Assembly (NCBI GenBank): GCA_937973905.1
Contig: CALJJR010000004.1
Location: forward strand, 1 to 41,410
From: an uncultured Arenicella sp.
Lineage (GTDB): Bacteria > Pseudomonadota > Gammaproteobacteria > Arenicellales > Arenicellaceae
Direction: 5' to 3'
Length of the DNA stretch: 41,410 bases
Shown here one piece after another: positions 26,604 through 39,280 of this stretch. The number at the start of each line of letters is the position of its first letter. The stretch's first letter is position 1. A program made the translations under genes and the position numbers. The notes under the pieces are model-generated. The model was given only the letters and a program-made list of their open reading frames with translations. It was not told the DNA's origin and ran no database searches.

Positions 26604-26822
26604 TATGAGGGCTGCGTTTATGGTGATGGAGAATCGTTTGAAGCATTGGATTATGCCGCAGTCACTGGAAATCAGGAAATCAGGCACTACGATACAGAAA
26701 TCAGGTAAAATCGACGCCTACTCAAACCAGCCGCGTTCCGCGTGAGCTGTATAAGAAAGACAACACGACCCTCAGACATTCGCTCCTGGCCTTGCCGTCA
26801 GCTGCGTGACCATGAATCAAAG

Positions 26823-29800
26823 ATGGAAATTAAAGATACACAAGTCAGTCTTTTTGACGATATAGAACACCGTGCTCAAAACTTTGCTCTGAGTGGAGCA
26901 GAACGGCCGTTTGAATGGCACAACGAAATTGTCGGTCTGTTGAGCGAGGAAGAAATTGAACGTACTCGCAAAGCGTTACATAAACTCGATGTTGATGAGT
27001 ATGTTGCACAAGCTCTAGAACCTGCCGAATCAGCCAAACGCCCGAGCGCGAAGGATACGCTTGGCCGCGTCAAAGGCAAAGTTCACGCGGAATTTGAGCT
27101 TGGCCCTCTGTACAGCGTTGAGATGAACGTTGAACATCAAGGGGCGGTAAAACGAGTCGGGTTCATTGCCCAAAACCGCAATATTAATAACGGGGTATGG
27201 GGGCCAGAGCATCACCTCGAAGCCTGTCGTTTGGCTGAGGAATTCGCCGAACGCAATGTTCCGATTATTACTCTAATGGACACCCCCGGCGCCGATGCCG
27301 GCACCGAGGCCAACGCCAACAATCAAGCCCATTCGATTTCTCGATTAATTGCAGTAATGGCGGCATCAAAAATGCCCAGCATCGGCATTATTTATGGGTT
27401 TGGTTACTCTGGTGGGGCAATTCCGCTGGCAACAACAAACTTATTATTCGCGGTTAGAGATGGTGTGTTCAATACCATTCAACCCAAAGGCCTCGCTAAC
27501 ATTGCTCGACAATACAATTTGTCATGGCAAGAAAGCGCTCGATATGTTGGTGTCTCACCATCGGAGCTTTACCGCAGCGGAGCAATCGATGGAGTAATCG
27601 ATTGGGACCCAATGGATAAAGACGCAGAGTTGGCGAACCTTAGCGCGGCAATTTTTACCGGCTTAGAAAAAATAGCTGCAGCAGCGAAACAAGAGGTATT
27701 GGAAAATCCCTTGGTAGCAAATGACTATCTTACCAAAGTCAGAACCGAGCGACCGCATAAACAAGCGTTTGAAAGATTGCAGCGCGAGGCTAACTTTTTG
27801 GTTGATCGCGGTATTAGCGACTTCCCGAGTGTTTATGCTCATGCGCTGCAGTACCAGCGTTCGGTTGCCCTACGTTGCCGTATTCGAGCTACTTCGTTGG
27901 AAGCATATGGCCGCTTGGCTGATGAAGAAATACCCAAAGGCGACTTAGAACAACGCATGCAAGCCTTGCGTGAAGAGTCTTTTCAACGCTGGTTGGCAGA
28001 TCCAGAAAAGTTGGTTTACAACGATCAACTCTCAAAAGCATGGTCGTCACTAAAACAAAAACAATCTGAGCTCGAAACCGAGCGTAACCGGATCACCGCC
28101 TTAATCTTGGGCGATCCGCAAAGCAATTATGAAGATGCTAAGCTGCATTTTTGCTATGTGACCTGTCTATATTTATACAATCGCTGGAAATCCGACGCAG
28201 CGTTTAACTTCATCGAAATTAGCCGTCTCGTTCAAACCGGTAATCCTGAAGCAAAAGACGCTTTTGATCTTTCTGATCAGGATGTGACGCTGCTCGATAC
28301 GCTGTACTCGCCGGCGTTGCGAGAAAGCATGCAGTTGCAGTTCCGCAACATGCTGGTTTTTGATGCGCTGTATAACAACATCGTCAATAACTTTGGCGAA
28401 ATTGCCGAAGAATCCAAGCAATTTCAGTCTTTATCGGAAGACACCCTACGCAGAATTCTCGACACCTCATTAGAAAAGGTTGCTTCTTCAATCGATCATT
28501 CGATCGAGACCAACACCGACGCAGAGGCCGTGCCAGGCGATATCAAAGCGCAATTCGCTAATTGGCTGAGCTACTTTGTTAAATACGATAAACGCGGCGA
28601 TTTTTTAAAGGACGTCGAAGAATGGAAACGCGTTAACTTTCCGCGACTGTCTGACTCATTACTGGTCTTGATTACCTATTTCTTCGAGACTTTGGTACCA
28701 CGCTTTATCGACGCACAAATGCAGGGCAAAAGCTATAACGGCCAGATTAACCCAGGTCGAATTGGCAAGCGTAAAGACTTTTGGAACCAGCTCAATATTG
28801 CGTATCAAGACTTACTGATCCAAAGGGTGCTCACTTCATTCAAGCGCCAGAAGCTCACAACTGTTGCTGCGATTCGTGAAGCCCTATTCCAAAATTTTGA
28901 AGAGACTCACGCGAACTTAATGACCGCCAACCCGGTGTCATTCCCCGGGTTTCGACAGTCTATTGAAAAAGCACTCAAGAACGACATCTCTCCCTGCGGC
29001 GTGATCACCGGCATTGGTGAGCTTGAACTTAGCGATGGCAAAACAGCTAAAGTTGGTGCCGTTATTTCCAACGTCGGCTTCCAGGCTGGCGCTTTTGACA
29101 TGGCGGGCGCGGTTAAAGTGTGCGCACTTTTAAGTGATTGTGCAAAACGTGGCTTACCCGTGGTGGGTTTCGTATCGTCTGGCGGCATGCAAACTAAAGA
29201 AGGGCCAAATTCCTTATTCTCAATGGCCATTACCAATGACCGGATCACTCACTTTATATCGGAAACTGGTTTACCGGTGATCGTTTTTGGTTTCGGCGAT
29301 TGCACGGGAGGCTCGCAAGCCAGCTTCGTAACGCATCCGCTCGTCCATACTTACTATTTCAGCGGTACCGACATGCCGTTCGCCGGGCGAGTTGTCGTAC
29401 CATCATTTTTACCCTCGATGGCTACAACCTCCAATTATCTGGTCAAGACGCCGGGCGCCATGCAAGGCTTGGTTAAACACCCGTTTCATGAAGGTTTAGA
29501 TGCAAAGCTTCGTGAAGTTGACCCAGAGATAGCTTTACCTGACACCACAGTAGGTGAAGTTGTCAGCCAGGTTCTGGCCGGCACTGCTAGCGTGGACAGA
29601 GAGCCTGAAGAACGAAAAATCCATCGCGCCGTCGACATGATGGGCCCGATTGATAAAGTACTTATCCACGCTCGTGGTTGCACTGCGGTAAAGCTGATCC
29701 GCATCGCGCAACAGCGTGGTCACGCAGTTCTGCTAGTTCAGTCTGACCCCGATATGGAATCTGCACCTGCCGACATGTTAGGCGAGCGTGACGAGCTTGT

Positions 29801-31382
29801 TTGCCTAGGTGGTCAAACGCCTGGCGAAAGCTACTTGAATGCAGATTCAGTGGTTGCTATTGCGCGCAACAGACAGGCCACGGCCCTGCACCCTGGCATC
29901 GGTTTTCTCTCAGAAAACGCCGCGTTTGCCAGATTGTGCCGCGCTAATAATTTAAATTTCATCGGCCCCAAAGCGTCGTCGATGGACACCATGGGCAACA
30001 AATCCAATGCAATTTCGACCGCAATGTCGAACAATGTACCAGTGGTGCCAGGGTCACACGGTATTTTAACCAGCGCTGAAGCGACTGCCGCGGTGGCCGA
30101 AGAGATCGGTTATCCAGTTTTACTAAAGGCTGTGCACGGTGGTGGCGGCAAAGGCATCAAAGTGGTGCGTAGCGCCGCAGAGGTAAAGTCAGCATTCAGC
30201 ACGGTATTCAGCGAAGCTCGCAGCGCCTTCGGCAACGGCGATCTTTATCTCGAGAAGTTCGTTGAATCAATGCGGCACATCGAAGTGCAAATTCTACGCG
30301 ACTCTCATGGCAACACCAAGGTGCTCGGCTTACGTGATTGCACGGTGCAACGCAATAACCAAAAGGTCCTAGAAGAGTCTGGCTCAACCATGCTGCCAAA
30401 GAAGCTTGAGCAACAAGCTTACGACTGCGCCGCTGACTTAGCCAACGCTGTGGATTATTTTGGCGCCGGTACAGTTGAGTTTATTTATGACCTTAGCTCA
30501 GACGCGATTTATTTCATGGAAATGAATACCCGTCTACAGGTCGAACACCCGGTCACCGAGTGGACCTCGGGTATTTCAATCGTCAGTCAACAATATGCAA
30601 TTGCGCAGGGTGAATCGATTGCGGATTTAAAACCAAAGAACAAAGGCTTCTCAATTGAAGCTCGGATCGTGGCGGAGAAAGCCAGATTAGATGATGAAGG
30701 TGCGGTAGATTTTCTACCCACGCCCGGAAAAGTTATCGAATGCCGTTTTCCCGAGCATCGTGATGATGTTGAGGTGATCGCCGCGGTCAATGAAGGCAAA
30801 ACAATTTCCCCTTATTACGACAGCATGATTGCGCAGTTAATCGTTCATGGTAGTAGCCGGAAGGACGCCATAAAACGTTTGCTATCGGCCTTAGATGAGA
30901 CAACCATTAAAGGTGTCTGCACTAACATCTCGTTGCTGAAACGTATTCTTAACGACAAGGTATTTGTTAAGGGTGACTACGACACGAAATACCTACCAAA
31001 ACTCTTGGAAACCCTCGATAAGGATGTCCTGATCGAAGAAATGTCCTACACAGGAGTTGAATCATCAGCCAGCAATCTGGATGATCTTAGAATTCAAGGC
31101 ACCGATGAAATCAAAGTAATCTCGCCAATGACCGGGATTTTCTATACCACGCCATCACCAAATGAGCCCCCATTTGTAAAAGCTGGCGAAAAAATCAGCA
31201 GCAAAGACACCTTGTGTCAAATTGAGGCGATGAAACTTTTCACACACATTTCGCTGACTAGCGTCCCAGGTGCTGGGGAGATTTTTGCCGAAGACTCTAA
31301 CTATGAGATCGTTCGTGTTAACCAAGCGAACAACGCTCAAGTAAACACCGGTGATCTGCTCTTTGTAGTAAAACCAGCGTAA
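26823..31382 (+). CDS. Single-chain multidomain biotin-dependent carboxylase (acetyl/acyl-CoA carboxylase family)
   Basis: One 1519-aa chain carries every part of an acyl-CoA carboxylase. About 90-275 resembles the carboxyltransferase alpha half AccA (PIITLMDTPGADAGTEAN, YGFGYSGGAIPLATTN). About 290-720 matches no domain I recognise and looks mostly helical. About 725-920 resembles the beta half AccD (VGFVSSGGMQTKEGPNSLFS, FGDCTGGSQASF), without the AccD zinc finger. About 945-1400 is a biotin carboxylase with ATP-grasp motifs HGGGGKGIKVV and EMNTRLQVEHPVTEW. The C-terminal ~90 residues are a BCCP domain whose biotin lysine is K1471 in IEAMKLF. In fused acyl-CoA carboxyltransferases the beta-like half usually comes first; here the order is reversed and split by a long insert. 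The substrate (acetyl-, propionyl- or longer acyl-CoA) is unknown. ATG 26823 is preferred over the track's GTG 26742. Confidence 0.9.
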   Translation: MEIKDTQVSLFDDIEHRAQNFALSGAERPFEWHNEIVGLLSEEEIERTRKALHKLDVDEYVAQALEPAESAKRPSAKDTLGRVKGKVHAEFELGPLYSVEMNVEHQGAVKRVGFIAQNRNINNGVWGPEHHLEACRLAEEFAERNVPIITLMDTPGADAGTEANANNQAHSISRLIAVMAASKMPSIGIIYGFGYSGGAIPLATTNLLFAVRDGVFNTIQPKGLANIARQYNLSWQESARYVGVSPSELYRSGAIDGVIDWDPMDKDAELANLSAAIFTGLEKIAAAAKQEVLENPLVANDYLTKVRTERPHKQAFERLQREANFLVDRGISDFPSVYAHALQYQRSVALRCRIRATSLEAYGRLADEEIPKGDLEQRMQALREESFQRWLADPEKLVYNDQLSKAWSSLKQKQSELETERNRITALILGDPQSNYEDAKLHFCYVTCLYLYNRWKSDAAFNFIEISRLVQTGNPEAKDAFDLSDQDVTLLDTLYSPALRESMQLQFRNMLVFDALYNNIVNNFGEIAEESKQFQSLSEDTLRRILDTSLEKVASSIDHSIETNTDAEAVPGDIKAQFANWLSYFVKYDKRGDFLKDVEEWKRVNFPRLSDSLLVLITYFFETLVPRFIDAQMQGKSYNGQINPGRIGKRKDFWNQLNIAYQDLLIQRVLTSFKRQKLTTVAAIREALFQNFEETHANLMTANPVSFPGFRQSIEKALKNDISPCGVITGIGELELSDGKTAKVGAVISNVGFQAGAFDMAGAVKVCALLSDCAKRGLPVVGFVSSGGMQTKEGPNSLFSMAITNDRITHFISETGLPVIVFGFGDCTGGSQASFVTHPLVHTYYFSGTDMPFAGRVVVPSFLPSMATTSNYLVKTPGAMQGLVKHPFHEGLDAKLREVDPEIALPDTTVGEVVSQVLAGTASVDREPEERKIHRAVDMMGPIDKVLIHARGCTAVKLIRIAQQRGHAVLLVQSDPDMESAPADMLGERDELVCLGGQTPGESYLNADSVVAIARNRQATALHPGIGFLSENAAFARLCRANNLNFIGPKASSMDTMGNKSNAISTAMSNNVPVVPGSHGILTSAEATAAVAEEIGYPVLLKAVHGGGGKGIKVVRSAAEVKSAFSTVFSEARSAFGNGDLYLEKFVESMRHIEVQILRDSHGNTKVLGLRDCTVQRNNQKVLEESGSTMLPKKLEQQAYDCAADLANAVDYFGAGTVEFIYDLSSDAIYFMEMNTRLQVEHPVTEWTSGISIVSQQYAIAQGESIADLKPKNKGFSIEARIVAEKARLDDEGAVDFLPTPGKVIECRFPEHRDDVEVIAAVNEGKTISPYYDSMIAQLIVHGSSRKDAIKRLLSALDETTIKGVCTNISLLKRILNDKVFVKGDYDTKYLPKLLETLDKDVLIEEMSYTGVESSASNLDDLRIQGTDEIKVISPMTGIFYTTPSPNEPPFVKAGEKISSKDTLCQIEAMKLFTHISLTSVPGAGEIFAEDSNYEIVRVNQANNAQVNTGDLLFVVKPA

Positions 31383-31484: not shown

Positions 31485-33179
31485 ATGAATTTATCGCTCG
31501 CAAAAAGAGCTCTGTCAGGCCTTAGCGTCTGTGCATCATGTTTTGCATTCTCAATTTATGCAGCGCAAGTCGGCAACTCGAAAACTTCACTCTCTGAGGA
31601 AATTGAAAACCTAATCGAGCAACGATCTCATTACGATCAGCTTATTATTCGTGGCGGCTACCTGATTGATGGTTCTGGTGCACCTCCCACTGGGCCCGTT
31701 GACATCGTTGTTGAGCAAGATCGAATTGCAAAAATTGTGAGCGTTGGCACTCCGGGGGTGGGAATCAACCCAAAACTGCGGCCTAAACTGCTGGATGAGG
31801 ACGGAAAGAACGTGCGTGAAATTGATGCTGACGGTAAGTTTATCTTACCCGGGTTTATTGATTCACATACCCACATCCATCGAGAGTCTAGCGGCCAAAA
31901 TGTGACTCCAGAATATATCTTCAAATTGTGGCTTGGGCATGGAGTGACCAGCGTGCGAGAAGTGTTCGCAACTGGCGGCGAAACGCGCTTGATGAAACTC
32001 AAGGCGATGAGTGACCGCAATGAAATCATCGCCCCTCGCATTACGGCATTCCCATTTTTTTACCTGCCAGCAATCATGCCGACAGACGGCGACCCGCAAC
32101 AGGCACCGATTGTCGATGCAAAGTCAGCGCGTGCACGCGTTCGGCATATTAAAAAAATTGGTGCGGACGGCATCAAATTTATGGGCGCACGAGAAGACAT
32201 CCTCTGGGCAGCCTTAGACGAAGCCGATAAAATAGGCCTCGGCACCACAATGCACCATGCGCAGCTCAATGTCGCCCATGCCAACGTTTTGGACACATCT
32301 GCTCGCGGCCTTGACTGTATGGAACATTGGTACGGCCTACCTGAAGCCTTGTTCACCGATCGAGTTATCCAAGACTACCCTTCTGACTATATTTACAGCA
32401 ACGAACAAGACCGTTTCGGGCAAGCTGGTCGACTCTGGAAGCAAGCCGCAGAACCGGGCAGTGAACGCTGGAACGAGGTAATGCAAACCTTGCTTGATCG
32501 TGACTTTTGTCTCAGCCCAACTTTCACGATATACCTCGCCAGCAGAGACTTGATGCGCGCTTACACGGCGGAGTGGCACTACCAATACACGGACCCTGGA
32601 CTGTGGGAGTTCTACCGCGCCAATCGCACCCAGCACGGTTCTTTCTTTTTCAATTGGACCACCGAGGACGAAGTTGAGTGGCGTCGCAACTTCAAACTGT
32701 GGATGCAGTTCGTTAACGAGTTTAAAAACCGCGGCGGTAAAGTGGTTGTGGGCAGCGACACCGGTTATCTCTACAGCCTCTACGGATTTGGCTATATTCA
32801 AGAATTAGAGCTGCTTCAAGAAGCCGGCTTTCATCCATTAGAGGTGATCCGTTCCGCGACCAAAGTTGGCGCGCAAGTTCTCGGCAAAGAAGATCAAATT
32901 GGCACCATTAGCGTGGGCAAAAAAGCCGACATTATCGTGGTGGATGAAAACCCGCTGCATAATCTAAAGTCTTTGTATGGCACCGGCGTGCCGAAACTCA
33001 ACGACCAGACGCAGAACGTTGAAAGAGTTGGCGGTGTTCGCTGGACGATCAAAGATGGCCTTGTTTACGATGCCAAAGCGTTACTTGCAGATGTTCGCGC
33101 CATGGTTTTGCAAGAAAAAAAGGCCCGTGGCATCGACCCCAAACTGCCACTCACGGTGGAAACACCTCTCGTTAACTAA
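31485..33179 (+). CDS. Secreted amidohydrolase-family metal-dependent hydrolase
   Basis: A 564-aa amidohydrolase-superfamily enzyme with an N-terminal Sec signal peptide (SGLSVCASCFAFSIYAAQ), so it acts in the periplasm. Metal and catalytic features are seen: LPGFIDSHTHIH (H128, H130), a possible carbamylated lysine in GIKFMGAR, TMHHAQLN, CMEHWYG and the aspartate in VVGSDTGYLYS. The C-terminal IGTISVGKKADIIVVDENPL belongs to the beta-sandwich. It is preceded by a good ribosome site (GAGGAAAGCCAA) and opens the seven-gene operon ending at 38448. The substrate is unknown; imidazolonepropionase- and dipeptidase-like relatives act on cyclic amides or peptides, but the neighbouring oxidoreductases suggest small-molecule catabolism. 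Confidence 0.87.
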   Translation: MNLSLAKRALSGLSVCASCFAFSIYAAQVGNSKTSLSEEIENLIEQRSHYDQLIIRGGYLIDGSGAPPTGPVDIVVEQDRIAKIVSVGTPGVGINPKLRPKLLDEDGKNVREIDADGKFILPGFIDSHTHIHRESSGQNVTPEYIFKLWLGHGVTSVREVFATGGETRLMKLKAMSDRNEIIAPRITAFPFFYLPAIMPTDGDPQQAPIVDAKSARARVRHIKKIGADGIKFMGAREDILWAALDEADKIGLGTTMHHAQLNVAHANVLDTSARGLDCMEHWYGLPEALFTDRVIQDYPSDYIYSNEQDRFGQAGRLWKQAAEPGSERWNEVMQTLLDRDFCLSPTFTIYLASRDLMRAYTAEWHYQYTDPGLWEFYRANRTQHGSFFFNWTTEDEVEWRRNFKLWMQFVNEFKNRGGKVVVGSDTGYLYSLYGFGYIQELELLQEAGFHPLEVIRSATKVGAQVLGKEDQIGTISVGKKADIIVVDENPLHNLKSLYGTGVPKLNDQTQNVERVGGVRWTIKDGLVYDAKALLADVRAMVLQEKKARGIDPKLPLTVETPLVN

Positions 33180-33182
33180 CTA

Positions 33183-34109
33183 TTGCAAGCTTCTCAAGAA
33201 TGGTGCGACTGTTGCATGCAACTCGCAACAATGCTCGACGCCGGCCTGCTACCGAGCGTCGCTTTAGCGACGGTTGGAAAAGACCAAACAGAATTAAAAT
33301 CGACTTTACGCCGCGCCCGTGGTCTGGTTGAACGAGGGGTAGATCTACCCAGCGCTTTGAAACGAGCTAAAGCAATTTCTGAGTTTGATTTTGAGCTGCT
33401 TAAATCAGCCGCAGTTGCCGGTCAGCTCGGTAGCGGGCTTCGACATATCGCGGAACATCGCGCACAACAGCTCGCACGTGTAAATAGCCTAAAAGCAGCG
33501 CTGTGGATGCCTAAGGCTGTACTTTTTGTCGGTGCCTTGGCGGGGTTATTTATACGCATCGCCAGTTACAAGCAACCCCCTGTTACCGCATTTACCACCA
33601 TCCTCTTGATCGTTTGTTTAGTACTCGTCAGTAGTCATCTATTTATTCGAATTTATTGCCTTGATCGACGCCTGTGGCTATCTTGGATGTGGCCGATTCG
33701 AATAATCAGAACTCAAAGCCTAAGATTCAAACAAAATTTTGAGCAGCTCTTTTATAGAAGCTTTATTTGGCAATACTCGGGGGGAGTAAGCACTGAGCAA
33801 GCACTTGCAAACTGCCAAAAGCTACTCACTTCGCCCACCTTTCAAGCCAACGTAGAGCAAGCCATTCACAGCGTGGCTAAAGGCACATCAACACCACAAG
33901 CATTGCTCCAAAACGATCTCGTCTTGAGCAAGAGAATGCGTCAAACCCTAAAACTGGCCAACCAGGCTGGAACACTTGAAACTGCAGTAAATCAAGAACT
34001 CACCTTGCAACAAGATGACATCGATCGCCGGCAGCTAAATGACATCAAATGGATTCCGCGGGCTTACTACGTCATTATTCTCGTAATCGTCTTCTGGTAC
34101 ATGCTCTAA
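33183..34109 (+). CDS. Orphan GspF/PilC-like inner-membrane protein
   Basis: A 308-aa protein with two halves that each resemble the T2SSF domain of type II secretion and type IV pilus platform proteins. The first is CMQLATMLDAGLLPSVALATV ... LLKSAAVAGQLGSGLRHIAEHRAQQ. The second is YSGGVSTEQALANCQ ... LKLANQAGTLETAVNQE. Membrane helices follow each half (AVLFVGALAGLFI, TILLIVCLVLVSSHLFI, YYVIILVIVFWYML). No ATPase, pseudopilin or other secretion gene is nearby. It starts at TTG 33183, 3 bases after the amidohydrolase stop; ATG 33216 is an alternative. It is shorter than the usual ~400 aa GspF. What it does between enzyme genes is unknown; it could scaffold or help export its neighbours. Confidence 0.7.
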   Translation: MQASQEWCDCCMQLATMLDAGLLPSVALATVGKDQTELKSTLRRARGLVERGVDLPSALKRAKAISEFDFELLKSAAVAGQLGSGLRHIAEHRAQQLARVNSLKAALWMPKAVLFVGALAGLFIRIASYKQPPVTAFTTILLIVCLVLVSSHLFIRIYCLDRRLWLSWMWPIRIIRTQSLRFKQNFEQLFYRSFIWQYSGGVSTEQALANCQKLLTSPTFQANVEQAIHSVAKGTSTPQALLQNDLVLSKRMRQTLKLANQAGTLETAVNQELTLQQDDIDRRQLNDIKWIPRAYYVIILVIVFWYML

Positions 34110-34150
34110 GCAATTCGGCAATTCTCATTTCTTGGGGCATACTAGGTCGT

Positions 34151-35014
34151 ATGAAGACCAAGGTATTTCTCAAGCGTATATTGTTCGCACTGATTCTTCT
34201 CAGCGTCATCGTAGCTGCTTTGGGTTATTGGAAACTCAAATCGATGGGGATGTTTCGTGAACCTCATTACGACACGTCAGCCCCTCAAGTTCCCCCGTTA
34301 AACCGTCCCGCCCTGCTGGTGTTCAATAAATCCAATGGCTTTATTCACAAAGAGGCGATTCTGGCAGCAACAAAGTTAATCGAAAACTTGAGTGTTAAAA
34401 ACGGATGGTCAATTTATCAAACTGATAATGCTGCAATTCATAATAGCCAGGACTTAAGTCGCTTTGACGTGGTTATCTGGAATAACAACACCGGCGATTT
34501 ATTAACTCGACAGCAACGCCAAGATTTTCGACGCTGGATTGAACAAGGCGGTGCTTGGCTGGGAATCCATGGCGCCGGTGGTAATCGGAGTTATGAATGG
34601 GGCTGGTTTCGTGACACATTAATTGGCGCACAGTTTATTGGTCACACTATGAGCCCTCAATTTCAAGATGCTGAAGTTCTGGTCGCTGACCCATCTCTAC
34701 TCACCACCCATCTACCCCAACCTTGGTTGGTAGAACAAGAAGAATGGTACGGTTTTGCAGAAAACCCGCGCAGCACGGGGTCAAAAATTCTCCTAACACT
34801 CGATGAGGAAAGCTACGATACATCAGAGACTCTGTTTGCCGACACATCGATGCCAGACGAGCATCCGATCGCTTGGCACCATCCTGTGCTTAAAGGTAAG
34901 ATGATTTATACGGCGATTGGGCATCAAGCGCAAACCTACGCCAACCCTCATTATCAAGACTTTATCGAAAAATCGTTACAGCTGTTGGTCGACAGAACTG
35001 AGGACGTGGATTGA
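34151..35014 (+). CDS. Membrane-anchored ThuA-like domain protein
   Basis: A 287-aa protein with an N-terminal signal anchor (FLKRILFALILLSVIVAALGYW) and a periplasmic ThuA-like domain with a glutamine-amidotransferase-type fold. Seen are ALLVFNKSNGFIHKEAI, FDVVIWNNNTGDLLTRQQRQDFRRW, GGAWLGIHGAGG, EEWYGF, HPIAWHHP and GKMIYTAIGHQAQTY, in the order typical of secreted ThuA proteins. Family members are linked to metabolism of trehalose, 3-keto-sugars and other glycosides. I preferred ATG 34151; the track's start lies within the previous gene. It overlaps the next gene (TGATG). Confidence 0.87.
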   Translation: MKTKVFLKRILFALILLSVIVAALGYWKLKSMGMFREPHYDTSAPQVPPLNRPALLVFNKSNGFIHKEAILAATKLIENLSVKNGWSIYQTDNAAIHNSQDLSRFDVVIWNNNTGDLLTRQQRQDFRRWIEQGGAWLGIHGAGGNRSYEWGWFRDTLIGAQFIGHTMSPQFQDAEVLVADPSLLTTHLPQPWLVEQEEWYGFAENPRSTGSKILLTLDEESYDTSETLFADTSMPDEHPIAWHHPVLKGKMIYTAIGHQAQTYANPHYQDFIEKSLQLLVDRTEDVD

Positions 35015-35295
35015 TGTTGGGAGCTGTTACAAAAGCGGCCGGTTGGGCATTGGTTACTATGTTGTTCCTGCTCTTTGGTTTGGAACTCATTGGTTGGGGG
35101 TTTTATGAACTAAGCCATCTCTTCAACATCGAATGGACGTATAAGCTGTACAGTATTTTTCGTGGCGCCGGATACTTTATTGGCGAACACCGCAGCGCGA
35201 TTTGGATTTATTCCGGTGCGGCTTGCATTACTGGCAGTATCAGCTTCTTTTTATCCAAACGAAAGATGTTAAAAGCAAAGGCCCTAGTTCGATGA
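35014..35295 (+). CDS. Small membrane protein of unknown function
   Basis: A 93-aa protein with two hydrophobic segments (WALVTMLFLLFGLELIGWGFY and AIWIYSGAACITGSISFFL) and a basic C-terminus. I recognise no family. The ATG overlaps the ThuA stop (TGATG) and its own stop overlaps the next start (ATGA), so it is translated within the operon. No haem motif CxxCH is present, so it is not the cytochrome subunit expected in gluconate-type dehydrogenases. It might anchor the periplasmic enzymes made from the next two genes. Confidence 0.72.
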   Translation: MLGAVTKAAGWALVTMLFLLFGLELIGWGFYELSHLFNIEWTYKLYSIFRGAGYFIGEHRSAIWIYSGAACITGSISFFLSKRKMLKAKALVR

Positions 35296-35936
35296 GTATT
35301 CAGAGTTTCGACCGACGAGACTTCCTCCGCCAAGCGGCCATCGCCTGTGCCAGTATCAGCGTTCTGCAAAGCCAAGCGATGACGCCGAGTCAAACTCGGG
35401 CAATGGCGGCCCACCCGGATTTTCTAGACCACTATCTTGCGACAATTTTCAGCCTAGAGCAAAAAGCCACCGTCGCTGCAATTGCGCGCCATATTATTCC
35501 AACCACGGATACTCCAGGTGCTGACGAAGCGAATGTGGCTTTGTTTATCGAACTGATGGTCGAGTACTGGTTGACCGAAAACGAGCGCAAAATATTCCTC
35601 GGCGAGTTCAACGAATTTGACTCTACTCCAGGGCTCAAATTTTCACAGCGTTCGCACACTCAACAACGTCAACTATTAGAGAACTTGGAATCAAAAGTGT
35701 CAGACGCAGCGTGGTTCAAGCTTGGAAATACTTTACGAACTTGGGACGCCGAAGCGCCGTTCATTTGCCAAGTTAAAGAGCTTACTGTTCTCGGCTTTAT
35801 GCTATCTGAAGTCGGCAGTAGAGAGTTTTTGCAGCTCAATAAAATGGGAGAGTTTCGCGGCGATATTGCAAAAAATAATGACACCTATGCCTACGCTACC
35901 GATATGCCGCTACGAGTATTTGTTAAAGACCAATGA
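35292..35936 (+). CDS. Gluconate 2-dehydrogenase subunit 3-like protein with Tat signal
   Basis: A 214-aa protein of the gluconate 2-dehydrogenase subunit 3 family, the small partner of GMC flavoprotein dehydrogenases. The N-terminus SFDRRDFLRQAAIACASIS is a twin-arginine export signal. The family region includes FSLEQKATVAAIARHIIPTTDTPGADEANVALFIE and ELTVLGFMLSEVGSREFLQ. In known FAD-dependent glucose dehydrogenases this subunit carries the Tat signal and brings the folded flavoprotein across the membrane with it. The next gene is a GMC protein without a signal of its own, which fits. I chose ATG 35292; the track's start belongs to the overlapping gene. Confidence 0.87.
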   Translation: MSIQSFDRRDFLRQAAIACASISVLQSQAMTPSQTRAMAAHPDFLDHYLATIFSLEQKATVAAIARHIIPTTDTPGADEANVALFIELMVEYWLTENERKIFLGEFNEFDSTPGLKFSQRSHTQQRQLLENLESKVSDAAWFKLGNTLRTWDAEAPFICQVKELTVLGFMLSEVGSREFLQLNKMGEFRGDIAKNNDTYAYATDMPLRVFVKDQ

Positions 35937-37618
35937 GCACTGATTTCGACGTCATCGTTGTGGGGTCTGGGGTGTCGGGCGGCTGGGCCGCTAAAGAGCT
36001 TTGCGAACGCGGATTTTCCGTCTTAGTACTTGAGCGCGGACGCAATGTTGAGCATGGCAAGGATTACCCAACCGAGCATATGCCGATCTGGAAACTCCCA
36101 TTTAATGGCCTACCAAATCGAGCGCAGAATGAACGAAACTATGCAGTGCAACAACGTTCCTACGCGTTCAATGAATCGAACAAACATTTCTGGAATAACG
36201 ACCGACTCAATCCTTATTTAAAAACGCCTGACAGCGAATTTATCTGGCATAGAGCGGATGTCGTAGGCGGGCGCTCACTCATGTGGAACCGCCAAGTGTA
36301 TCGGATGAGCGAATTGGATTTTAAAGCTAACGAGCAAGATGGAAATGGCGTACCGTGGCCGATCACCTATCAAGATTTAGAGCCTTGGTATGAGCATGTA
36401 GAGAAGTTCATTGGTGTCAGCGGTCAGGCTGAGGGTTTAGCGCATTTTCCAGATGGTGAGTTTCTACCGCCAATGAATATGTTCGAGTTCGAAAAAACGA
36501 TCAAAAAGAGACTCGCACGCAAAATGCCAGAACTGACGATGACCATCGGCAGAACGGCGACGCTCACCGTGCCACACAATGGAAGAGCCGCTTGTCATTA
36601 CTGTGGCCCATGCGATCGAGGTTGCAGTTCTGGGAGTTATTTTTCATCCCAAAGTAGCACGCTGCCCGCAGCACGACGCACAGGAAGGCTCACACTGTTG
36701 AGCGACAAAATTGTAACGAGCTTGGAAACTGATGAGAGTGGCCGCCGCGTTACGGCGGTGAACACGATGGATGCCTTAGGTAAGAATGCTCAACGTTTTT
36801 CATCGAAGCTCATCTTCTTATGCGCGTCTACCCTAGCGTCCACGCAAATTTTGCTTAATTCTCGTAGCGCTAAACATTCCCATGGATTGGCGAACTCCAG
36901 CGGCACCTTAGGGCACTATCTGATGGACCATTGTTCATACACTCACAGCGCCGTTATGATCGATGACACAGATAAATTCTACGTCGGCAATCGCCCCAAC
37001 GGCTGCTATATCCCACGCTTTAGAAACCTTGAGGGTAGTGATGATTTGGGCTTCTTGCGCGGCTACGGATATCAAGCAAATGTGCTTGCCGCCGATTGGC
37101 AATCAAGCTTCAACCGCAAAGGGTTCGGCGCTGAGTACAAAAATTCATTGCGCAAACCAGCGCCCTACTGGATATGGGCACTCAGTGGATTTTTAGAATG
37201 CTTACCGTATAAAGACAATCAAATCTCTCTCCACGACAGCAAGACGGATAGGTTTGGCGTACCACTGCTAAACACGCAATTTAATTGGCGCGATAACGAA
37301 TTCAAACTTGCTGACGATAGTGCACAGTATGCCGCCAGAATATTTCGTGCTGCTGGAGCAATCCAATACTCGATCTCCGATAAGTCAGCGATGCGAACCG
37401 GCGGCGGCACCATTCATGAAATGGGCACGGCTAGAATGGGAAGTGATCCGAAGACATCAGTGCTTAATCGATACAACCAGGCTCATGACGTTGACAATCT
37501 GTTCGTGACAGACGGGTCGTTCATGAGTTCTTCTTCCTGCGTCAACCCTTCACTAACTTATATGGCGTTTACAGCAAGAGCTTGTGACTACGCTGGCAGC
37601 TTAATTACAGCAAAGTGA
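35933..37618 (+). CDS. GMC-family FAD-dependent oxidoreductase
   Basis: A 561-aa glucose-methanol-choline flavoprotein. The FAD-binding GSGVSG motif lies at residues 11-16, VVGGRSLMWNR is the second FAD-contact motif, and the C-terminal HEMGTARMGSDP, NLFVTDGSFMSSSSCVNPSLTYMAFTARA segments carry the catalytic region. A four-cysteine cluster CHYCGPCDRGC (C221, C224, C227, C231) could bind an iron-sulfur centre, as in some FAD sugar dehydrogenases. It lacks a signal peptide and overlaps the Tat-tagged partner by 4 bases, so it is probably exported with it. A sugar or polyol is the likely substrate, oxidised in the periplasm; the electron acceptor is not encoded nearby. Confidence 0.9.
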   Translation: MSTDFDVIVVGSGVSGGWAAKELCERGFSVLVLERGRNVEHGKDYPTEHMPIWKLPFNGLPNRAQNERNYAVQQRSYAFNESNKHFWNNDRLNPYLKTPDSEFIWHRADVVGGRSLMWNRQVYRMSELDFKANEQDGNGVPWPITYQDLEPWYEHVEKFIGVSGQAEGLAHFPDGEFLPPMNMFEFEKTIKKRLARKMPELTMTIGRTATLTVPHNGRAACHYCGPCDRGCSSGSYFSSQSSTLPAARRTGRLTLLSDKIVTSLETDESGRRVTAVNTMDALGKNAQRFSSKLIFLCASTLASTQILLNSRSAKHSHGLANSSGTLGHYLMDHCSYTHSAVMIDDTDKFYVGNRPNGCYIPRFRNLEGSDDLGFLRGYGYQANVLAADWQSSFNRKGFGAEYKNSLRKPAPYWIWALSGFLECLPYKDNQISLHDSKTDRFGVPLLNTQFNWRDNEFKLADDSAQYAARIFRAAGAIQYSISDKSAMRTGGGTIHEMGTARMGSDPKTSVLNRYNQAHDVDNLFVTDGSFMSSSSCVNPSLTYMAFTARACDYAGSLITAK

Positions 37619-38448
37619 TGAAATTCAAACATTCAATTCATAGCAAATGTCAGCTAGCAACTATCGTTTTGATAATGCTGACATACTCTTGGCCTGCGAC
37701 CGCGCAAACTGGTTTGAGCCTTCGAGGCTTAGCCTCATTCGATGTCGCGCCAATCAATACACTCACCCTCGAGATATCTGTCCGTAACCATAGCTTCGTC
37801 GTTTTACCTCCACCACTAGGGTTCATTCGACCAATAACAAGCTCGGTTATGACAGTGGTATCAGTTCCCAGCGGATCACAAAGTATCAGCTACTTGATTG
37901 AAGATATTGAACCAGACCCGGTGGACTACACCATTCAGATGAAGTGTCTGGGTTGTTCGGACATCGTTCCAACCCAGTATTACACCATGAACGGAAATGC
38001 GACTGGATTGGTTAACTCGGCCTTTATTGATCCACTCGACTTTCCCTCCGAATTGAACCTTAATCTGATCACCAGAGGCATGATTTCAGGCGAAATTGAG
38101 TTGTTAAACGAGTCAAGTCAAGATTTGGAATTCATCGTAGAAGCTTTTGATAGCAATGTTCCAGAATTCGCAATCGAACAATCGCCGCCAATTATTCTTC
38201 CAGCAGGAGAGTTAATTGTCGACTACCAAATCAGAGGTATTCGCCGTAATAACGTGCAACTACGCCTGGCAGCCAAATGTGAAAATTGCTTTGGCCGAGC
38301 ACGCAAACCAGAGACATTTGAGCGCCTGCTCTCAAGCCAAGAAGATCACAATGGAATTAATTTCTATTTTGAAGGACGCGGAACCCCAGTTCTAGATCCA
38401 ATTTTATTGCCGTTACTTGAGGAGGAAATCTCGCCTATCAATCCGTAA
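37618..38448 (+). CDS. Secreted protein with two CxxC-bearing repeats, function unknown
   Basis: A 276-aa protein with a Sec signal peptide (LATIVLIMLTYSWPATAQ). The mature part seems to contain two related beta-rich halves. Each has a VPSG/LPAG-type turn, then SYLIEDI or DYQIRGI, then a strand ending in a CxxC pair (QMKCLGCSD and AAKCENCFG). The pairs could form disulfides, bind metal, or react in redox exchange. I recognise no family. It overlaps the GMC stop (TGATG), so it is made with the oxidoreductase and may be its periplasmic partner or structural subunit. The start could be GTG 37615 instead. Confidence 0.75.
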   Translation: MKFKHSIHSKCQLATIVLIMLTYSWPATAQTGLSLRGLASFDVAPINTLTLEISVRNHSFVVLPPPLGFIRPITSSVMTVVSVPSGSQSISYLIEDIEPDPVDYTIQMKCLGCSDIVPTQYYTMNGNATGLVNSAFIDPLDFPSELNLNLITRGMISGEIELLNESSQDLEFIVEAFDSNVPEFAIEQSPPIILPAGELIVDYQIRGIRRNNVQLRLAAKCENCFGRARKPETFERLLSSQEDHNGINFYFEGRGTPVLDPILLPLLEEEISPINP

Positions 38449-38666: not shown

Positions 38667-38822
38667 ATGAAGTACCGTTACGGACCATCGAGGTTTTACT
38701 CGACACTCGCTGAACGCTTTCCGCTTCAGTGTGTTAATTATTTCGAATCTGCTGTAAAACAGCGCAGGCTTAACCAAAGTATTCTCGCTTACTTCCAAAT
38801 CAAAGAAGGCTCACTATGTTAG
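38667..38822 (+). CDS. 51-aa basic protein coupled to the CheX-like gene
   Basis: Below the ORF-track cutoff. An unusually strong ribosome site (AAGGGGGGATAGGA) leads into an ATG that opens a 51-residue frame, MKYRYGPSRFYSTLAERF...., ending Ser-Leu-Cys. The peptide is basic and mixed, with no signal peptide or membrane helix. Its stop overlaps the start of the next gene (ATGTTAG), a typical coupling arrangement, while that next gene lacks a good ribosome site of its own. I recognise no family. It could be a real small partner protein or mainly a translated leader. Confidence 0.6.
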   Translation: MKYRYGPSRFYSTLAERFPLQCVNYFESAVKQRRLNQSILAYFQIKEGSLC

Positions 38823-39280
38823 AACATAAGTATATGGAGGTGTTCGTAGATGGGCTTACGCGATACTTTAAACATCTTGACGAAGCACGCGAGACGAGCA
38901 GCCCCTCTTTACAAATTGGGTCGCCTTTTCTAATCGACGAAGCCAGTACTCGCGGGCTTGATTACACCGGCGTTATTTCAATTTCTGGAGAAAATAAGGG
39001 TCATGTTTTTTTCTCCGCAAATAGTTCACTGTTGAAAATTATTCTCTTGGCGTATGGCGCTAAAGACCTTACCACCTCGAAACACCGTGATGTTGTAGGG
39101 GAAGTCGCCAATACTATTGCGGGTAACGCGCGAGAACATCTGGGTAATCACTTTAATATATCCACGCCGTCGGTTGTGGAAGGACCTATAAGCCCCGAAA
39201 AATACAAGTTGAGCCCACGCTGTTTCGTCTTGCCGTTTCGCTGGAAAAGCAATCAAGCCGAGCTAATTGTCAGTGTCTAA
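38816..39280 (+). CDS. CheX-like chemotaxis phosphatase domain protein
   Basis: A 154-aa protein of the CheC/CheX/FliY phosphatase class. The signature ExxN is present in VVGEVANTIAGNAREHLG (E96, N99), preceded by the beta strands GVISISGENKGHVFFSAN. Such proteins remove the phosphate from CheY-type receiver domains; CheX acts as a dimer. It has a single ExxN site, as in CheX, rather than two as in CheC. No receiver, kinase or flagellar gene lies nearby, so the target response regulator is unknown. It probably depends on the overlapping 51-aa ORF for translation. Confidence 0.83.
   Translation: MLEHKYMEVFVDGLTRYFKHLDEARETSSPSLQIGSPFLIDEASTRGLDYTGVISISGENKGHVFFSANSSLLKIILLAYGAKDLTTSKHRDVVGEVANTIAGNAREHLGNHFNISTPSVVEGPISPEKYKLSPRCFVLPFRWKSNQAELIVSV

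Follow-up and report, generated by a model that had tools for sequence, protein, structure and literature searches.

The window (the whole stretch of DNA analysed here, 41,410 nucleotides from an uncultured Arenicella sp.) is contig C4 of a 3.38-Mb MAG that is 88.75% complete. Between positions 31485 and 38448 it contains the seven ORFs, all on the + strand, that an earlier note on this DNA had described there:

31485..33179, + strand: secreted amidohydrolase (PF01979 Amidohydro_1, E=1.8e-22); neighbour, outside the conserved unit
33183..34109, + strand: short GspF/PilC-like membrane protein, 308 aa (PF00482, two T2SSF domains, 5e-20); neighbour, outside the conserved unit
34151..35014, + strand: ThuA-family protein, 287 aa, with an N-terminal TM anchor (PF06283, E=3.8e-49); core gene 1
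35014..35295, + strand: 93-aa membrane protein with three predicted helices (no Pfam/NCBIfam family); core gene 2
35292..35936, + strand: Tat-exported small (hitchhiker) subunit of a dehydrogenase (PF13618, E=6.4e-20; TIGR01409 Tat signal); core gene 3
35933..37618, + strand: GMC flavoprotein dehydrogenase, catalytic subunit (PF05199/PF00732; GMC_oxred_C 1.9e-22); core gene 4
37618..38448, + strand: secreted protein with two CxxC motifs and two predicted beta-sandwich domains (no family); neighbour, outside the conserved unit

The domain calls made earlier all lie above the Pfam curated cut-offs (Amidohydro_1, T2SSF in two stretches, ThuA, Gluconate_2-dh3 with TAT_signal_seq, and GMC_oxred_C); the membrane protein (taken as 94 aa) and the 277-aa CxxC protein matched no family in a Pfam/NCBIfam profile search. 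The close order with overlapping starts is likewise confirmed, all junctions being short gaps or overlaps. The gap between the amidohydrolase and GspF-like genes is 3 bp and that between the GspF-like and ThuA genes 41 bp; ThuA and the membrane protein overlap by TGATG (ATG 35014), the membrane protein and small subunit and the small subunit and GMC genes by ATGA (at 35292 and 35933, respectively), and the GMC and CxxC genes again by TGATG (ATG 37618). The starts at 35014 (membrane protein) and 37618 (last gene) are corrected from the sequence, and the likely ThuA start is ATG 34151 and not the upstream ATG 34049, as judged from the sequence and from the ThuA of a congener (G008), which starts at the same place. 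A sequence scan found no more promoter- and terminator-like sites around the seven genes than expected by chance. Since the junctions are so short, a single transcript for all seven genes is plausible in this genome. On one side of them, at 26742-31382, the window encodes one 1546-aa protein that combines acyl-CoA carboxyltransferase parts with a complete biotin carboxylase (PF03255/PF01039, PF00289, PF02786, PF02785) and has a biotin-attachment-like EAMK motif near its C-terminus; it is, to judge from these matches, a fused acyl-CoA carboxylase. Downstream, at 38816-39280, a CheX-family protein (PF13690, E=2.8e-15) is encoded alone, with no chemotaxis genes seen beside it.

The earlier note proposed that the seven genes together could be a new catabolic system. 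Our search of 60 genomes of relatives does not bear this out, as the set of seven is not conserved, an outcome that the note itself had named as refuting its proposal; just the four-gene core at 34151-37618 recurs, and the amidohydrolase, GspF-like and CxxC genes lie away from the core in every relative examined. These separate conservation patterns make the unit one of four genes, not seven: the ThuA, 93-aa protein, small subunit and GMC genes are a real conserved unit, and the other three are unrelated neighbours that are found elsewhere in relatives. We thus reject the seven genes as one conserved system, the latter three being scattered across congener genomes. The seven might nonetheless have become one recent, lineage-specific catabolic operon, in which the amidohydrolase would act on an amide or ester to free a glycoside, while maturation or electron transfer would involve the CxxC protein. 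The single strand, the junctions of -4 to 41 bp, the TGATG overlap into the 277-aa gene and the lack of a terminator above chance would all agree with this, but the three neighbour genes are absent from the core loci of G008 and of a Halieaceae MAG (L043) and are scattered in congeners, and we consider such an operon quite unlikely.

The amidohydrolase has orthologues with 77–80% identity in three congeners (G014, G004 and G008), where its neighbourhood differs; in G008 it is on a different contig from the core. Homologues of the GspF-like protein are solitary in four congeners (G002, G009, G010 and G011), in four unrelated contexts. Such short (~310 aa), solitary GspF/PilC-like proteins are a sporadic family in the genus (5 genomes), with no GspE gene beside them in the loci that were read. 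Of the features that identify GspF/PilC proteins (two T2SSF domains, about 400 aa, a GspE/PilB ATPase), the window's protein has the domains, is 308 aa long, and has no ATPase gene linked to it in the window or at the four homologous loci; with no linked ATPase and solitary homologues in four congeners, we reject it as part of a T2SS/T4P locus. No other PF00482 protein was detected in this MAG (88.75% complete), although ATPases of the GspE type and of the PilT/PilU type are encoded on other contigs. It could be argued from this that the GspF-like protein works in a secretion or pilus machine by which the core enzymes are exported; however, its homologues are linked neither to the core nor to GspE, a PilC/GspF protein may be missing from a MAG of this completeness, and the core already has its own Tat signal and TM anchor, so that an export role is highly improbable. 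Homologues of the CxxC protein occur in 11 congeners (one of the matches is weak and falls inside proteins that are far larger), and these are away from the core in all seven neighbourhoods read. Its residues C111, C114, C222, C225, H59 and H245 are invariant among the genus-wide homologues, each of the two predicted beta-sandwich domains having one CxxC and a conserved His. Its AlphaFold model has a mean pLDDT of 81.8, and its listed Foldseek matches, with TM-scores <0.4, are to generic beta-sandwich proteins and say little about it.

The core genes stand in the order ThuA, 93-aa membrane protein, Tat small subunit (PF13618) and GMC flavoprotein. The same order is present in congener G008 (contig C246), where the four proteins are 60, 45, 47 and 68% identical, in gene order, to those of the window, and where an apparent toxin-antitoxin pair flanks the core at one end and a different secreted protein does so at the other. 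All four genes are also found in this order in the Halieaceae MAG. An alignment of six GMC proteins, used to scan named genomes, picked up 80 loci, and the core is partly kept in three further loci of Gammaproteobacteria (L044, L045 and L046). At the first of these, in Pseudoteredinibacter isoporae, one locus has all four gene types but arranged differently, the membrane-protein gene lying on the opposite strand; this species provides a named isolate with the complete complement. ThuA or the membrane protein accompanies dehydrogenase genes at L045, L046, L048, L049, L055 and L088. In a maximum-likelihood tree of 90 GMC proteins, those of the window, G008, L043, L044, L045 and L046 form one clade (SH-aLRT 99), of whose six loci five have ThuA and five the membrane protein. 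The clade is also marked by a specific cysteine in the small subunit (APFICQ motif), present in 6/6 of its members and 0/67 of the others. The fourth cysteine of the GMC protein, Cys224, was considered as a marker of the ThuA-linked clade and rejected, as it is present in 30/84 homologues, mostly without ThuA; it occurs without the APFICQ cysteine in 22 loci, so a pairing of these two cysteines would be conjectural.

The closest solved relatives of the GMC protein are the catalytic subunits of fructose dehydrogenase and FAD glucose dehydrogenase (E about 1e-34). The catalytic pair is kept: among the homologues with letters at these positions, His495 is found in 83/83 and Asn538 in 82/82, and the two align with fructose dehydrogenase residues that are mutated in entries 8k6j and 8xcn. 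Cys221, Cys227 and Cys231, present in 84/84 homologues, match fructose dehydrogenase cysteines by alignment and have the same C-x5-C-x3-C spacing as the ligands of the BcGDH 3Fe-4S cluster, Cys212, Cys218 and Cys222 (PMC6719666), so a cluster of this kind may be present here. The small subunit has no sequence match in the PDB, and its gene adjoins the GMC gene in most of the 80 loci. No signal peptide is visible on the GMC protein, which, with the Tat signal on the small subunit, fits the expected hitchhiker export.

The 93-aa membrane protein is a rare, undescribed family. It has five members, all beside a GMC gene; this linkage is partly by construction, because the loci were collected by GMC similarity, and an unbiased search found no members in 368 other genomes of the class. 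Residues E33, H36, Y44, Y47, S48 and F50 (numbered from TTG 35011) are invariant. The AlphaFold model has a mean pLDDT of 89.6 and no fold match in the PDB (E >4). The invariant Glu33 and His36 appear to lie near the membrane surface, a position that would suit a role with quinone.

The ThuA domain scores 168.2 bits against a cut-off of 33.4, the protein is 59–61% identical to that of G008, and it is the only ThuA found in this MAG. Four of its residues (His140, His165, Glu198 and His258) are invariant in nine homologues, and its domain would be periplasmic. Among about 84 loci, ThuA is linked to GMC in 9 and DUF1080-type matches are present in 12, with no overlap; a statistical pattern of ThuA replacing DUF1080 was set aside, 9 against 12 loci being too few. 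A literature search for ThuA proteins with 3-keto chemistry found nothing relevant, and the literature read assigns no reaction to ThuA.

The neighbours of related loci bear on the substrate. Genes for xylose-isomerase-like TIM barrels, Gfo/Idh proteins or transporters lie beside L043, L045, L046 and L049 (Gfo/Idh specifically at L045 and L049), and many loci of the wider family have genes of the DUF1080, isomerase-like and Gfo/Idh types. Neither the window nor G008 has a sugar gene next to the core. Other loci have neighbours of a second type. On the Alteromonas sp. I4 plasmid pAltI4 (L198, 56% GMC identity), where the GMC protein and small subunit are kept without ThuA or the membrane protein, genes for acyl-CoA dehydrogenase, AMACR, feruloyl esterase and a TonB receptor adjoin; acyl-CoA dehydrogenase is encoded beside L048, P450-like and hydrolase genes beside L046, and DUF1302/DUF1329 and enoyl-CoA-hydratase-like genes beside L055. 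These suggest, as a tentative alternative of rather low probability, that the alcohol oxidised by the core belongs to a lipid, steroid, terpenoid or hydroxycinnamate compound, or to a glycoside of one, the aglycone then being degraded via acyl-CoA intermediates, and that free sugars are not the core's substrate. Against it stand the sugar-isomerase-like genes at L043, L045, L046 and L049, the Gfo/Idh genes at two of these, and the literature read on this GMC type, which reports sugar or glycoside oxidation (PMC9007349, PMC10628242). Both types of neighbour would be accounted for if the substrate were a lipid, steroid or aromatic (aryl) glycoside, which is possible. At locus L042, in a genome of the same order (G062, contig 24), two GMC/small-subunit pairs are clustered with DUF1080-like, Gfo/Idh-like, isomerase-like and MFS-like genes; by its gene content the locus looks like a full sugar 3-oxidation island.

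What holds of the earlier reading is thus sugar oxidation, which is likely for the four genes; it is supported for ThuA, the small subunit and the GMC protein by family membership, by the active-site and cluster residues, and by the sugar-type neighbours in relatives, and does not extend to a new system of seven. Outside the inner membrane, the core probably oxidises a sugar, or a compound that bears one, and then processes it further, and we favour, with somewhat better than even confidence, its being a variant of the LacABC/GlycDH-type periplasmic glycoside 3-dehydrogenases, with ThuA acting on the keto product. In this mechanism the small subunit would carry the GMC flavoprotein across the inner membrane via the Tat pathway, the His/Asn pair and FAD of the latter would oxidise a ring hydroxyl of the glycoside, most likely at C3, and the electrons would pass through the cysteine-bound Fe-S cluster. 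The three-helix protein may anchor the complex, or may take electrons towards quinone or towards a cytochrome encoded elsewhere, and the membrane-anchored ThuA would act in the same location on the resulting 3-keto compound. A narrower version, in which the 93-aa protein, as a membrane subunit of a novel type, anchors the GMC/Fe-S dehydrogenase and passes electrons to quinone without a cytochrome, and ThuA also replaces DUF1080 by cleaving or isomerising the 3-keto-glycoside, is doubtful as a whole. Bacteria can open glycosides without ordinary hydrolases by oxidising them to 3-keto sugars, and a compact, conserved unit of four genes that pairs the dehydrogenase with ThuA and an undescribed membrane protein offers a handful of candidates for both functions.

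Proteins of the ThuA family PF06283 are known from the trehalose-utilisation operons of rhizobia. The ThuA of the core belongs to the same domain family, but unlike those proteins it is membrane-anchored, is paired with a periplasmic GMC dehydrogenase and has no ThuB-type Gfo/Idh gene beside it. The closest solved structures, BcGDH of Burkholderia cepacia and the fructose dehydrogenase of Gluconobacter, have the His/Asn pair and the three 3Fe-4S cysteines aligned with those of the core, which differs from them in that it has no multiheme cytochrome c subunit and its fourth cysteine is placed differently. LacA of the LacABC system is a GMC protein. In the periplasm of Caulobacter crescentus, LacABC oxidises the C3 position of lactose, and a protein of the DUF1080 family has been proposed to hydrolyse the product (PMC9007349). 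The core is like this system, to judge from the latter's description, in that a periplasmic dehydrogenase of several subunits has, close to its genes, a gene for a putative partner that processes keto-glycosides, and a GMC protein with a Tat-type small subunit is common to this family. On the other hand, the core has no cytochrome or DUF1080 gene and has instead ThuA and the rare three-helix membrane protein: there is no CxxCH motif in the seven translated proteins or at the G008 locus (L030), and no match to DUF1080 (PF06439) in this MAG (88.75% complete) or in G008 (78% complete). GlycDH of Rhizobium sp. GIN611, which with a TAT protein oxidises C3 of glycosides, is likewise similar by description, as an FAD-dependent oxidoreductase co-expressed with a Tat-signal protein; GlycDH-type genes in Agrobacterium have sugar isomerases and a Gfo oxidoreductase as neighbours (PMC10628242), whereas the core in the window has no adjoining isomerase or Gfo/Idh gene. 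The best reading of these comparisons is that in the core ThuA stands where DUF1080 hydrolases often do, and the membrane protein where cytochrome c often does.
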